DNA from: Nevskiaceae bacterium
Lineage (GTDB): Bacteria > Pseudomonadota > Gammaproteobacteria > Steroidobacterales > Steroidobacteraceae
Assembly: GCA_018883185.1 (NCBI GenBank)
Contig: VEQP01000002.1
Span: forward strand, 62,001-126,000
Direction: 5' to 3'
DNA length: 64,000 nucleotides
Position numbers and translations under genes: made by a program. Below are positions 56,372 to 60,432 of the stretch, piece after piece. Numbering within the stretch: position 1 is the first letter of the stretch; every line of letters starts with the position of its first letter. The notes below the pieces were generated by a model. That model saw only the letters and a program-made list of their open reading frames with translations. It was not told the origin of the DNA and did not search any database.

Positions 56372-56898
56372 AGCCCCGTCTGTTTCAGCGCTTTCTGCGC
56401 TTCATGTCCGAGCGACGCATTCTCGCCGATGGGCGCATGCTCGAACTGTATCCGCCGTTTTTGTTTATGCGCATCAAGGTGCTAGAGGTGGACCGCGAGT
56501 GGCGGCACGTGCGCATCCGCCTACCGCTGAATGCGATTTCGCGTAACCCCGGCGGCGTCATGTTCGGCGGCTATCAAGCGGCGCTTGCCGATCCGATCGC
56601 CGCGCTCGCCTGCGCGCGGGTGTTCCCCGGCTACTCCACCTGGACCCGCGCCATGCAGATCGATTTCGAACACGGTGGCAGCACCGATCTCGAACTGCGA
56701 TTCGAATTTTCGGCGGAAATGGAAGCGCAGATTCGCGAAACACTAGCCCGAGAGGGCCGCGCGACACCGTCGTTCGAGTACGGGTATTTTCTGCAGGATG
56801 GCACGCGCTGCACGCGTGTGATCAACACCGTGGCGATTCGGCCGCGCGGTTACAGTCGTGCTACCACGCCGCCCGCGCCGCAAAGCGGCGTCGATTAA
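56368..56898 (+). CDS. Hot-dog-fold thioesterase-like protein (DUF4442 type)
   Basis: A 176-residue hot-dog protein of DUF4442/PaaI style. The sequence [24 protein letters not shown] (about residues 54-78) is the central helix with the preceding NxxGxMFGG motif, which supplies the catalytic Asp/Asn region, followed by [12 protein letters not shown]. It could hydrolyse acyl-CoA, or only bind it. The GTG at 56368 overlaps the deacetylase stop. Its own stop overlaps the convergent rpoH stop by 4 bp. C-terminal residues about 160-176 are Pro-rich and probably disordered. Confidence 0.8.
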
Positions 56899-57776
56899 GC
56901 CGCGTCCACCATCACGGCGCGCAGCTTCTTGATCGCATTGGCTTCGAGCTGGCGGATGCGCTCAGCCGACACCGAGTATTTGGCAGCCAGATCGTGCAGC
57001 GTCGGTTTCTCAGCCTCGCTCGACATCCAGCGGCTGGCGAGGATGTCGCGGCTGCGTGCATCGAGCGATTGCAGCGCGGCGGTGAGACGGGCATGAGTCT
57101 GTTCGTCCCACTCGGCGGTTTCGACTTGTTCAGCTGGATCTGCATCGGGTGCAGGCAGATACGCTACCGGTGAATGAGCTTCGTCTTCCTCGGAGTCGAG
57201 CGGCGTGGGATCAAAGGCGATCTCGCGGGCCGACAGACGACGCTCCATCTCGGTGACTTCAGCTGGGGTGACACCAAGCTCGCGCGCTACCGCCGCGGTC
57301 TCGTCGGCCGAGAGCCAGGAGAGGTTCTTCTTCATGCGACGCAGGTTGAAGAACAGCTTGCGCTGCGCTTTGGTGGTCGCGACTTTGACGAGGCGCCAGT
57401 TGCGCAGCACGTACTCGTGGATTTCCGCCCGGATCCAGTGCACGGCAAAGGAGACGAGGCGCACGCCGACGGCCGGATCAAAGCGCTTGACCGCTTTCAT
57501 CAGACCGACGTTGCCTTCCTGAACGAGATCACCCACCGGCAGGCCGTAGCCCGAGTAGCCGCGGGCGATGTGTACGACGAAGCGCAGATGCGAGAGCACC
57601 AGCGCTCGCGCCGCTTCGACATCACCGTCAGCGCGAAAGCGCAGGGCGAGGGCCTGCTCGTCCTCGCGGGAGAGCATGGGCACGCGCGAGACGCGGTCGA
57701 GGTACGCGTCGAGGCTGCCGAGTGGCCCGGTGAGGGCGAAGTCGGCGGAGCGCAGGGCGAGAACTTGGCTGGTCAT
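56895..57776 (-). CDS. rpoH: RNA polymerase heat-shock sigma factor (sigma-32)
   Basis: A 293-residue sigma-70-family factor of RpoH type. Region 2 ([38 protein letters not shown]) and the RpoH box QRKLFFNLR (residues 138-146) identify it as sigma-32 rather than another group-2 factor. Region 4 ([26 protein letters not shown]) binds the -35 element. GAGAGG precedes the ATG at 57776. A near-perfect CIRCE element lies 26 bp upstream of the start codon, so repression by HrcA is likely. Neighbours ftsXEY give the classic gammaproteobacterial order. Confidence 0.97.
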
Positions 57777-57801
57777 GCGTGGGTTACCTCTCGGTTGAAG
57801 T

Positions 57802-57828
57802 CTAGCACTCTGTGTCTTTGAGTGCTAA
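57802..57828. promoter_or_regulatory. CIRCE element (HrcA operator) upstream of rpoH
   Basis: The arms are CTAGCACTC (57802-57810) and GAGTGCTAA (57820-57828) with the exact 9-base spacer TGTGTCTTT. Against the consensus TTAGCACTC-N9-GAGTGCTAA this is 17 of 18 arm positions; the only change is the first base. It lies 26 bp upstream of the rpoH start codon, in the promoter/5' leader region. HrcA binds CIRCE and represses at normal temperature; its presence here is inferred since no hrcA gene is in the window. Confidence 0.93.
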
Positions 57829-57891
57829 ACCCGGCCGAAGTTCAGGTCGATAAGCTCAGTCTAATCAATGGCTTAGAGACCCGACCCTAGG

Positions 57892-58818
57892 TCACTGCCG
57901 CGGCTCAATCCGCGACAGGTGCCGCGCAGCGCCGATCCAGGCCCCCACCAGCCCGAGCAGGGCACCACCGCCGAGTAGCACGCCGAGCTCCTCGATCGTC
58001 AGCCCGACGAGCTGAAAGTTGCTGCCATAGAGCCGGGCGAGCTGCATTAGCGAAGGTTCGAGCGCCGCATTAATCGCGAGGAGCCACAACGCTGCGAGAG
58101 CGGCGCCGAATAGGCCGTACAGTCCGCCGAGATATAAAAAGGGTCGGCGCACGTAAGCGTTCGAGCCACCGACCAACTTCGTGACTTCGATCTCGGCGCG
58201 GCGCGCGCTGATCTCGAGGCGTATGGCGTTGCCGATGATGGCGAGCACGCCGGCGGCCAGCAGTGCGGCGAACACTTGGAACACGCGTTCGAGCAAGCCG
58301 AGCAACGCGCTTAGGCGACGCACCCATTCGTTATCGACTTGCACGATATCGGTCTCGGGCCAACTGGCGAGATAACGCTGCAGTGCGGCCACACTCGAGG
58401 GGTCGGCACGATCGCTGCTGGGTCGCAGGCTGATCACGTGCGGCAGAGGGTTGCCTTGCAGCGCTTCAAGTGCGGCACCAAAGCCGGAGTATTTACGAAA
58501 CTCCGCGAGACCATCCTCCGCTGAAATCAGCATGACGCGGCCGGCTTCGCGGCGCGCCCGCGCACTGTCGGCGAGTTGGCGGGCCCGCTCGAGTGACACG
58601 TCGGTCTTGAGATAGACCGTCAGTTCGATCGCTTCGGTCACGCTGCTCGTGGCGCTGCGCGCGTTCTTGACGAGCAGGTACAGGCAGGTCGGCAGCGTGA
58701 GCGCGAGGCTGATCACCGCGATACTCAGCAGCGTACCGAGCGGTCGACGCAGCAGATAACCCAGCGTCGCGAGCAACGCCTGCAGATGTCGCGCCACATA
58801 GGTGAGGGGCGAGCTCAT
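57892..58818 (-). CDS. ftsX: Cell division protein FtsX
   Basis: A 308-residue four-helix inner-membrane protein. An N-terminal helix (LLRRPLGTLLSIAVISLALTLPTCLYLL) is followed by an extracytoplasmic domain (residues about 58-160, with ELTVYLKTD) and three C-terminal helices in a MacB/FtsX-type permease domain (EIEVTKLVGGSNAYVRRPFLYLGG). FtsEX controls peptidoglycan amidase activation at the septum. The start at 58818 overlaps the ftsE stop by 4 bp. It is the last gene of the ftsY-ftsE-ftsX run and is followed by rpoH after 115 bp. Confidence 0.95.
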   Translation of the reverse strand: MSSPLTYVARHLQALLATLGYLLRRPLGTLLSIAVISLALTLPTCLYLLVKNARSATSSVTEAIELTVYLKTDVSLERARQLADSARARREAGRVMLISAEDGLAEFRKYSGFGAALEALQGNPLPHVISLRPSSDRADPSSVAALQRYLASWPETDIVQVDNEWVRRLSALLGLLERVFQVFAALLAAGVLAIIGNAIRLEISARRAEIEVTKLVGGSNAYVRRPFLYLGGLYGLFGAALAALWLLAINAALEPSLMQLARLYGSNFQLVGLTIEELGVLLGGGALLGLVGAWIGAARHLSRIEPRQ

Positions 58819-59483
58819 ATCGTGGACGTCCCGCCGAGCAGGCGACCTTCGTCGATGTGCAGTTCGCGATGCCCGAACTCGCGCACGAGGGCCATATCGT
58901 GCGTGGCGATCACTACAGTGACACCCACCTCCTGAAAGCGGGCGAACAGTTGCATCACATCGCGCGCGAGGGAGTGATCGAGATTGCCCGTGGGCTCATC
59001 GGCAATGAGGATGGTGGGGCGCGCCACCACCGCGCGTGCGATGCCGACCCGCTGCTGCTCGCCAACCGACAGTTCCAGCGGCAGTGCCCGCTCCTGCTCC
59101 CGCAACCCGACCTGATCGAGCGCCGCTCGCACGCGCTTGTCGATGTCGCGATACCGGGTGTCCGACACCATCAGCGGCAGCGCCACGTTGTCGTACACCG
59201 GGCGGTCCATCAGCAGTTGGTGATCCTGGAAGACGACGCCGAGGCGGCGGCGATACGCCGCTACCGCTCGCGCGGGCAGGCTGCCGGTGTCTTGGCCGTT
59301 GACGAGTACGCTGCCTCGCGTGGGTCGCTCGAGCAAGGCCACGAGCTTCAGCACCGAGCTTTTGCCTGCGCCAGATCGACCCGTGAGGAACACGAACTCC
59401 CCGGCGCCGATCCGGAACGACACGTCCTGCAGGGCCTCGCGGCCGTTCGGATAGCGCTTGAAGACGTGTTCGAACTGGATCAT
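58815..59483 (-). CDS. ftsE: Cell division ATP-binding protein FtsE
   Basis: A 222-residue ABC ATPase. Walker A is GRSGAGKSS (about residue 36), signature LSVGEQQRVGIARA, Walker B ILIADEPTGNLD, and the switch His is in ATHD. The family start IQFEHVFKRYPNGREAL is clear. The signature differs from LSGGQ (LSVGE), as seen in some FtsE proteins. It works with FtsX at the division ring. It starts 7 bp after the ftsY stop and overlaps ftsX by 4 bp. Confidence 0.96.
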   Translation of the reverse strand: MIQFEHVFKRYPNGREALQDVSFRIGAGEFVFLTGRSGAGKSSVLKLVALLERPTRGSVLVNGQDTGSLPARAVAAYRRRLGVVFQDHQLLMDRPVYDNVALPLMVSDTRYRDIDKRVRAALDQVGLREQERALPLELSVGEQQRVGIARAVVARPTILIADEPTGNLDHSLARDVMQLFARFQEVGVTVVIATHDMALVREFGHRELHIDEGRLLGGTSTI

Positions 59484-59490
59484 CGCGGCA

Positions 59491-60432
59491 TTATCCCTTG
59501 CCGCCGTCGATCAGCGCACGCGCGAAGGCTTCGGCATCGAATTCGCCGAAATCCTGCGCCCCTTCGCCGATGCCTATAAAGCGGATGGGCAGGGCGAGCT
59601 GGCGGGCGATGGCGAGCACGATGCCGCCTTTGGCCGAACCGTCGAGTTTGGTGAGCACGAGCCCGGTCACGCCGACCGCTTCGCGGAATTGCACGGCTTG
59701 CTTGAGCGCGTTCTGTCCTTGGTTGGCATCGAGCACCAGCAGCACCTCGTGGGGCGCGCTGGGGTCGACTTTGCCGAGCACGCGGCGCACCTTGCGCAGT
59801 TCCTCCATCAAGTGCGTCTGCGCCTGCAAGCGGCCCGCAGTATCAGCGATCAGCACGTCGGCACCGCGGCTGCGCGCGGCGCTCAGCGCATCGAACGCGA
59901 CGGCGGCCGGATCCGCGCCTGGCGCCTGCGCGATCAGCTCCGCGCCAGTGCGTGCAGCCCAGATGCCGAGCTGCTCGGTGGCAGCGGCGCGAAAGGTGTC
60001 GCCGGCCGCGAGCATCACCTTGAGGCCCTCTTGCGTGTAGAGACTGGCCAGTTTGCCGATGGTCGTCGTCTTACCCGAGCCGTTCACGCCGACGACGAGG
60101 ATGGTGAAGGGCTTGCGCGAGGGATCGATACGCAGTGGCTGAGCCACGGGTTGCAGCAAGGCCGTGATGTCCGCCTGCAGCGCCTGCAGCAGCGCCTCGA
60201 CATCGCCGAGCTGCTGGCGCGCCACGCGCGCGCGCAAGCCTTCGAGCAACTCCTCGGTGACCGTCACGCCGACGTCGGCCGCGAGCAGTCGCGTCTCGAG
60301 TTCCTCCAGTACCTCTGCATCGATGCGCCGCGAGCCAAAGAGACGAGCGAGCTCGCTGCCGAGCCCTGCGCCCGGACGAGTCAGGCGCGCGCGCAGGCGG
60401 GCAAAAAAGCCGGGTTTGGAATCGCTGCTCAT
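59491..60432 (-). CDS. ftsY: Signal recognition particle receptor FtsY
   Basis: A 313-residue SRP GTPase. The N-domain helical bundle (about residues 20-95) is followed by the G domain: G1 GVNGSGKTTTIGKLA (about residue 115), DTFRAAATEQL, the G3 DTAGRLQ motif and TKLDGSAKGG with G4 TKLD. The FtsY-typical end GEGAQDFGEFDAEAFARALI is present. It lacks the long acidic N-terminal A domain of E. coli FtsY (497), so membrane contact must come from the short lipid-binding N-terminus. It is divergent from rsmD with 51 bp between starts. Confidence 0.96.
   Translation of the reverse strand: MSSDSKPGFFARLRARLTRPGAGLGSELARLFGSRRIDAEVLEELETRLLAADVGVTVTEELLEGLRARVARQQLGDVEALLQALQADITALLQPVAQPLRIDPSRKPFTILVVGVNGSGKTTTIGKLASLYTQEGLKVMLAAGDTFRAAATEQLGIWAARTGAELIAQAPGADPAAVAFDALSAARSRGADVLIADTAGRLQAQTHLMEELRKVRRVLGKVDPSAPHEVLLVLDANQGQNALKQAVQFREAVGVTGLVLTKLDGSAKGGIVLAIARQLALPIRFIGIGEGAQDFGEFDAEAFARALIDGGKG

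Follow-up and report, generated by a model that had tools for sequence, protein, structure and literature searches.

Does a CIRCE element in front of rpoH place the gene for sigma-32 under the control of the repressor HrcA, and if so, which promoter would HrcA act on? This question is raised by a Nevskiaceae genome, of which a stretch of 64,000 nucleotides (the window) was analyzed. The features of the window that matter here are the following.

56895..57776, minus strand: rpoH, encoding sigma-32, 293 aa (profile match)
57787..57792, minus strand: likely Shine-Dalgarno sequence GAGAGG (read from the sequence)
57799..57807, minus strand: possible extended -10, TGC-TAGACT (weak), formed by the CIRCE right arm and ACT
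57802..57828, minus strand: CIRCE, putative operator for HrcA; in the orientation of rpoH it reads TTAGCACTC-AAAGACACA-GAGTGCTAG
57817..57821, minus strand: sigma-E type -10, TCAAA, with TC from the end of the left arm of CIRCE and AAA from spacer positions 1-3; 16 nt separate it from the -35
57838..57844, minus strand: sigma-E type -35, TGAACTT (6/7 to GGAACTT), at -16 to -10 before CIRCE
57892..58818, minus strand: ftsX, the upstream neighbor of rpoH on the same strand
58815..59483, minus strand: ftsE
59491..60432, minus strand: ftsY

The CIRCE pattern searched for was TTAGCACTC-N9-GAGTGCTAA, i.e., near-perfect arms around a 9-base spacer. Window positions 57802-57828 read CTAGCACTC-TGTGTCTTT-GAGTGCTAA and agree with this pattern in 17 of 18 arm bases, with a spacer of exactly 9 bases. 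This was the sole match in the window at up to three mismatches, and 100 dinucleotide shuffles of the window gave a mean of 0.01 matches. The gene behind the element scored 395 bits against TIGR02392 rpoH_proteo (cut-off 323). The first-pass annotation had described a 17/18 CIRCE with exact spacing in front of rpoH, its geometry making a chance occurrence unlikely, and this description is borne out by the sequence, the shuffles and the profile score. The distance to the rpoH start had been given as 26 bp; the gap between CIRCE and the ATG was counted as 25 bp. We regard it as a genuine CIRCE and hence as the predicted operator of HrcA.

CIRCE was found with two or fewer mismatches in all 24 genomes of the genus, and in 21 of these, that of the window included, RpoH is encoded directly behind such a site. 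The rpoH leader of the remaining three could not be read, as G013 and G032 gave no RpoH match at E 1e-40 and the gene extends beyond the contig end in G005; CIRCE is present in 21/21 readable rpoH leaders. At the level of the class, 115 genomes were drawn evenly, all at least 95% complete except that of the window. RpoH was found in 109 of them, and leaving out the window genome gave 108 genomes, each with its own family code, and 111 leaders. With a threshold of at least 15/18, CIRCE was found before rpoH in 81 of the 108 genomes (one per family), and 41 of these sites matched in 18/18 positions. The score never exceeded 14/18 in 555 mononucleotide-shuffled leaders. By these counts an rpoH CIRCE is common in the class and not special to the lineage of the window, which makes it less unusual than the first-pass annotation had thought.

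The presence of the site was found to follow the presence of hrcA. An rpoH CIRCE occurred in 76 of 81 class genomes with hrcA vs 5 of 27 without an hrcA match (both present in 76 genomes, the site alone in 5, hrcA alone in 5, neither in 22; Fisher 1e-13 with genomes treated as independent). A second, named set consisted of the best 80 titled relatives, 78 of them with a leader; L047 and L091 were dropped, their contigs holding no or almost no leader. CIRCE at 15/18 or better was found in 52/78 of these leaders, and site and hrcA occurred together at 47 loci, the site alone at 5 and hrcA alone at 2, while 24 had neither. A phylogeny-aware test on a quick RpoH tree of the 78 named loci yielded only five supported independent pairs, too few for a decision on the link (sign test median p 0.5). 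The proposal that HrcA would control sigma-32, for which the first-pass annotation had suggested a comparison of rpoH leaders in related genomes, is supported by this comparison: the leaders of the genus keep CIRCE, three quarters of the class families have it, and it goes with hrcA. The comparative evidence thus supports both the site and the control link as real. Two single leaders deserve mention. In L147 (G201), a locus from a genome with hrcA, the rpoH leader reads CTGGCGCTC-N8-GAGTGCTAA behind TGAACTT; with its 8-base spacer it was counted as having no CIRCE. In L193 (G121) the perfect CIRCE of rpoH is closely preceded by a second CIRCE-like repeat, TTAGCAGTC-N9-GAGTGCTAA, which was seen by eye.

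The inverted repeat could instead work at the RNA level, as a hairpin of the rpoH leader, be it a stability element, a thermometer or a terminator of ftsX. Its arms do pair when the predicted leader RNA is folded, shuffled versions of the 111 nt fold somewhat less well (z -2.18), and a change of arm base 3, seen in 22 sites, retains a G-U pair. However, pair 7-21 is broken in 8 sites and pair 1-27 in 5, and double changes affect 4 of 729 arm pairs (3 restore a Watson-Crick pair, 1 a G-U pair). The terminator scan was empty, no Rfam match was obtained, and CIRCE presence tracks hrcA. The hairpin, terminator and thermometer readings were rejected based on the terminator scan, the Rfam search and the failure of arm changes to keep the pairing, and we hold it very improbable that the repeat works as RNA and not as the HrcA operator that we prefer.

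The assembly that contains the window has 2.8 Mb in 71 contigs and is 89.6% complete. Only two CIRCE-like sites were found in all of it at up to three mismatches, the 17/18 site at rpoH and a 16/18 site that precedes groESL on contig C40, a place where the first-pass annotation had advised a search for further copies. In the genus genomes examined the groESL CIRCE is lopsided (L002 1501-1527, L294-L307), with TTAGCAGCC or TTAGCACCC opposite a perfect GAGTGCTAA; in this it is unlike the near-perfect rpoH CIRCE of the genus.

According to the first-pass annotation, a genome without hrcA would refute HrcA control of rpoH. Formally the assembly is such a genome, with no PF01628 match anywhere in its 89.6% complete sequence. 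The rpoH CIRCE could then be a relic, decaying after the species had lost hrcA, and the groESL site, at just 16/18, fits this. Yet the assembly also lacks a dnaK over the cut-off, a gene that 12 of 14 control genomes have. In a close relative, a 7.9 kb stretch was read from its open reading frames as carrying dapB, dnaJ, dnaK, grpE, hrcA, nadK and recN. This stretch matches the assembly of the window only at bases 24 to 1932, corresponding to 7542-9425 of contig C66, and the match includes dapB and all of dnaJ. C66 is 9436 bases long and stops 11 bases past the match, just short of dnaK. Since dnaK is absent as well and C66 ends between dnaJ and dnaK, an assembly gap is likely, and it is likely that one gap that took dnaK, grpE and hrcA together explains the missing hrcA. 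HrcA was found to be encoded in 27 of 30 relatives' genomes searched and in 18/18 genus members other than that of the window, and the imperfect groESL site is common to much of the genus. The relic reading was rejected for this genome on the position of the C66 end and the missing dnaK; decay of the site after a loss of hrcA is in our view very improbable, and a site that still serves as HrcA operator is preferred.

When the 81 class leaders were aligned on CIRCE, conservation was not limited to the arms. Positions -16 to -10 showed G-G-A-A-C-T-T, the spacer had T as its first and A as its third base, and [AT][AC]T followed CIRCE directly, while spacer positions 4-9 were nearly without information. 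Promoters recognized by sigma-E have the form GGAACTT, 16 nt, TCTnA. Because the conserved GGAACTT-16 nt-TCTnA has this form and is matched by rpoH of E. coli, a -10 appears to be built from the TC of the left arm and the spacer. The window has TGAACTT-N16-TCAAA before rpoH, which fits GGAACTT, about 16 nt and TCnnA.

A -35 matching in at least 5/7 positions and starting at -15 to -17 was found at 56 of the 81 rpoH CIRCEs, the same leaders on which the motif had been discovered. The control CIRCEs had it, among the matches listed, in 2/32 cases for groES, 0/12 for groES of the genus and 1/10 for hrcA; three sites had no gene assignment. It lay at the exact offset of -16 in 46/81 rpoH sites, and any offset from -60 to -18 gave at most 4. 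A TCnnA -10 made from the left-arm end and the spacer was present in 52 of the 56 rpoH sites with the -35. Spacer base 3 was A in 52/56 sites with the -35 vs 10/25 without it (Fisher 8e-7), and this association ties the two boxes together. The box (at least 5/7) was also found in 20/21 genus leaders and in 43/52 named leaders with CIRCE, sets that overlap the 81 leaders in part (at least one shared genome, duplicates kept). No sigma-E type -35 was found at the right place in 25 of the 81 rpoH CIRCEs, so the overlap between CIRCE and promoter is not universal. The sigma factor itself is encoded in the window genome (RpoE, TIGR02939 269 bits, cut-off 236), with genes matching RseA_N and MucB_RseB as the next two genes, i.e., rpoE-rseA-rseB.

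One of the hrcA controls, L272 (G165), resembles the rpoH layout, with a GGAAC-like box ahead of CIRCE and a spacer of T-n-A. A G at CIRCE base 3, considered as an improvement of the -35, occurred in 23/81 rpoH vs 4/32 groES sites among the matches listed (p 0.09), and we do not claim it.

The same promoter form is found where CIRCE is absent. The rpoH leader of E. coli K-12 holds TGAACTT-N16-TCTGA, with a -35 identical to that of the window, in the gene order ftsY-ftsE-ftsX-rpoH that is also seen here. Unlike in the window, CIRCE is absent there, the best match in 300 bases of leader being 11/18, and an HrcA search of E. coli as control genome gave no match. We take its sigma-E promoter to be P3. 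In the named set, 18 of 26 leaders without CIRCE reached at least 9/10 when scored for a promoter of the sigma-E type; shuffles, made for the other sets, gave about 2%. Records titled Methylophaga, Marinobacter, Halomonas and Pseudomonas were among those with such leaders. No hrcA match was found for 16 of the 18, and the other two, both Nitrococcus (L070 and L110), have hrcA and the sigma-E type rpoH promoter without an rpoH CIRCE. In the class set, the sigma-E test was positive for 3/22 leaders without both hrcA and CIRCE (shuffles, 8/440) and for 2/8 leaders without CIRCE from genomes with hrcA (shuffles, 3/160). With 3 of 22, the sigma-E promoter is not kept everywhere.

HrcA could also repress rpoH through CIRCE without the sigma-E-like boxes being a working promoter; transcripts would then come from another promoter or from read-through of ftsYEX, with HrcA as a roadblock. 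ftsX adjoins rpoH on the same strand, the box is absent from the 25 rpoH CIRCEs mentioned above, and in the window the -35 matches in just 6/7 positions and TCAAA is a minority form of the -10 (4/81 leaders, compared to 22/81 for the commonest, TCTAA). On the other hand, the spacing is fixed, the -35 is coupled to the A in the spacer, the box is kept in nearly all genus leaders, and E. coli and the 16 named leaders without CIRCE and hrcA match have the promoter without the operator. We therefore regard inactive boxes as unlikely and prefer a sigma-E type promoter that is overlapped by CIRCE.

A second promoter, of the sigma-70 type, may be present as well. The right arm and the following [AT][AC]T form a TGCTAAAAT-like extended -10 (TGCTAA[AT][AC]T) in 53/81 rpoH sites. 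The pattern [AT][AC]T at +1 to +3 after CIRCE was found in 61/81 rpoH sites, and among the matches listed in 0/32 groES and 2/10 hrcA sites. The 18 leaders with a sigma-E promoter and no CIRCE had an extended -10 in 7 cases, its first base lying 13 or 14 bases downstream of the first base of the sigma-E -10; three of these seven are Marinobacter, and shuffled leaders had it in 38/3600 cases. At the level of the class it is likely that the CIRCE right arm contains a second, housekeeping-type -10, and the right arm in the window may contain one. A generic sigma-70 scan of the window scored no promoter at its TGC-TAGACT.

The groESL CIRCEs of the same bacteria (32 class sites among the matches listed, and 12 genus sites) represent the same operator in a different setting. 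Unlike at rpoH, CIRCE there lies mostly just after a CTTGA...CTATTA-like promoter (judged by eye) and does not contain the -10. One repressor would accordingly serve two kinds of promoter. What appears to be new here, and surprising, is the interlocking at rpoH, where CIRCE overlaps a putative sigma-E (RpoE) type promoter. No description of such an overlap was recognized in titles, abstract starts and passages of the open-licence literature; being limited to that literature, this is weak evidence for novelty. The 2003 study by Permina and Gelfand on the beta, gamma and epsilon groups may list CIRCE sites before rpoH. Neither HrcA nor rpoH is named in the RegPrecise 3.0 article (main text). A CIRCE before rpoH has been predicted in Geobacter sulfurreducens, a delta-proteobacterium (PMC545781, Table 8). 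As here, CIRCE precedes rpoH (there a perfect TTAGCACTC-N9-GAGTGCTAA, position -51) and is also found at groESL; a further copy lies ahead of hrcA-grpE-dnaK-dnaJ, the region missing from our assembly, and the passages of that paper available do not describe a sigma-E overlap (PMC545781). Passages from four further papers added nothing on rpoH and CIRCE (PMC1978210, PMC10696704, PMC11764788, PMC3135505).

The sequences and positions of the elements, their conservation, the link to hrcA and the rpoE-rseA-rseB genes lead us to infer that HrcA gates the sigma-E type promoter of rpoH. Where it has been studied, HrcA activity depends on GroEL. With a probability of roughly 0.7, we propose that the HrcA operator is interlocked with the rpoH sigma-E promoter in a gate that is set by HrcA and GroEL and closed by negative feedback. 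As long as there is spare folding capacity, GroEL would keep HrcA folded, and HrcA dimers bound to CIRCE would bar RNA polymerase from both rpoH and groESL, in the case of rpoH by covering the -10 and the start of the sigma-E promoter. Overload of GroE would take HrcA off the DNA and make rpoH transcribable. Since HrcA activity needs GroEL, rpoH would be fully on only under such overload. The sigma-E promoter would add an envelope signal to this control, and the combined gate would allow the strongest rpoH transcription if envelope stress had freed sigma-E as well. Sigma-32 would then increase the level of chaperones, which would restore HrcA. During nitrogen starvation of Xylella, according to passages of one study, a 4-fold increase of hrcA is seen at 2 h and a 2-fold increase of rpoH at 8 and 12 h (PMC3224663). 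As given in those passages this time course counts against a simple repression of rpoH by HrcA; the rpoH of Xylella lies outside the leaders checked for CIRCE here.

If the proposal is true, most families that keep hrcA (76 of the 81 sampled) put the master sigma factor of heat shock under a chaperonin-sensing repressor, and in many families the repressor site would be placed directly over the envelope-stress promoter of rpoH. The HrcA, sigma-E and sigma-32 systems would be joined within about 50 bp. It predicts that rpoE-dependent rpoH transcripts start inside CIRCE and that rpoH is derepressed in hrcA mutants. The control of sigma-32 is taught from E. coli, which would then be a derived case. 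We consider it an even bet that the ancestor of the Gammaproteobacteria had the HrcA operator and the rpoH sigma-E promoter as one interlocked element, with full synthesis of sigma-32 requiring both envelope stress (free sigma-E) and chaperonin overload (HrcA off), and that the promoter of E. coli and its kin is the half that remained once HrcA had been lost.

Parts of the element were seen in two rpoH leaders from genomes without an hrcA match. L184 (G174), of the class set, has TTGGCACTC at rpoH followed by a right arm that is one base short, and the leader of L111 retains AGTGCTAG.
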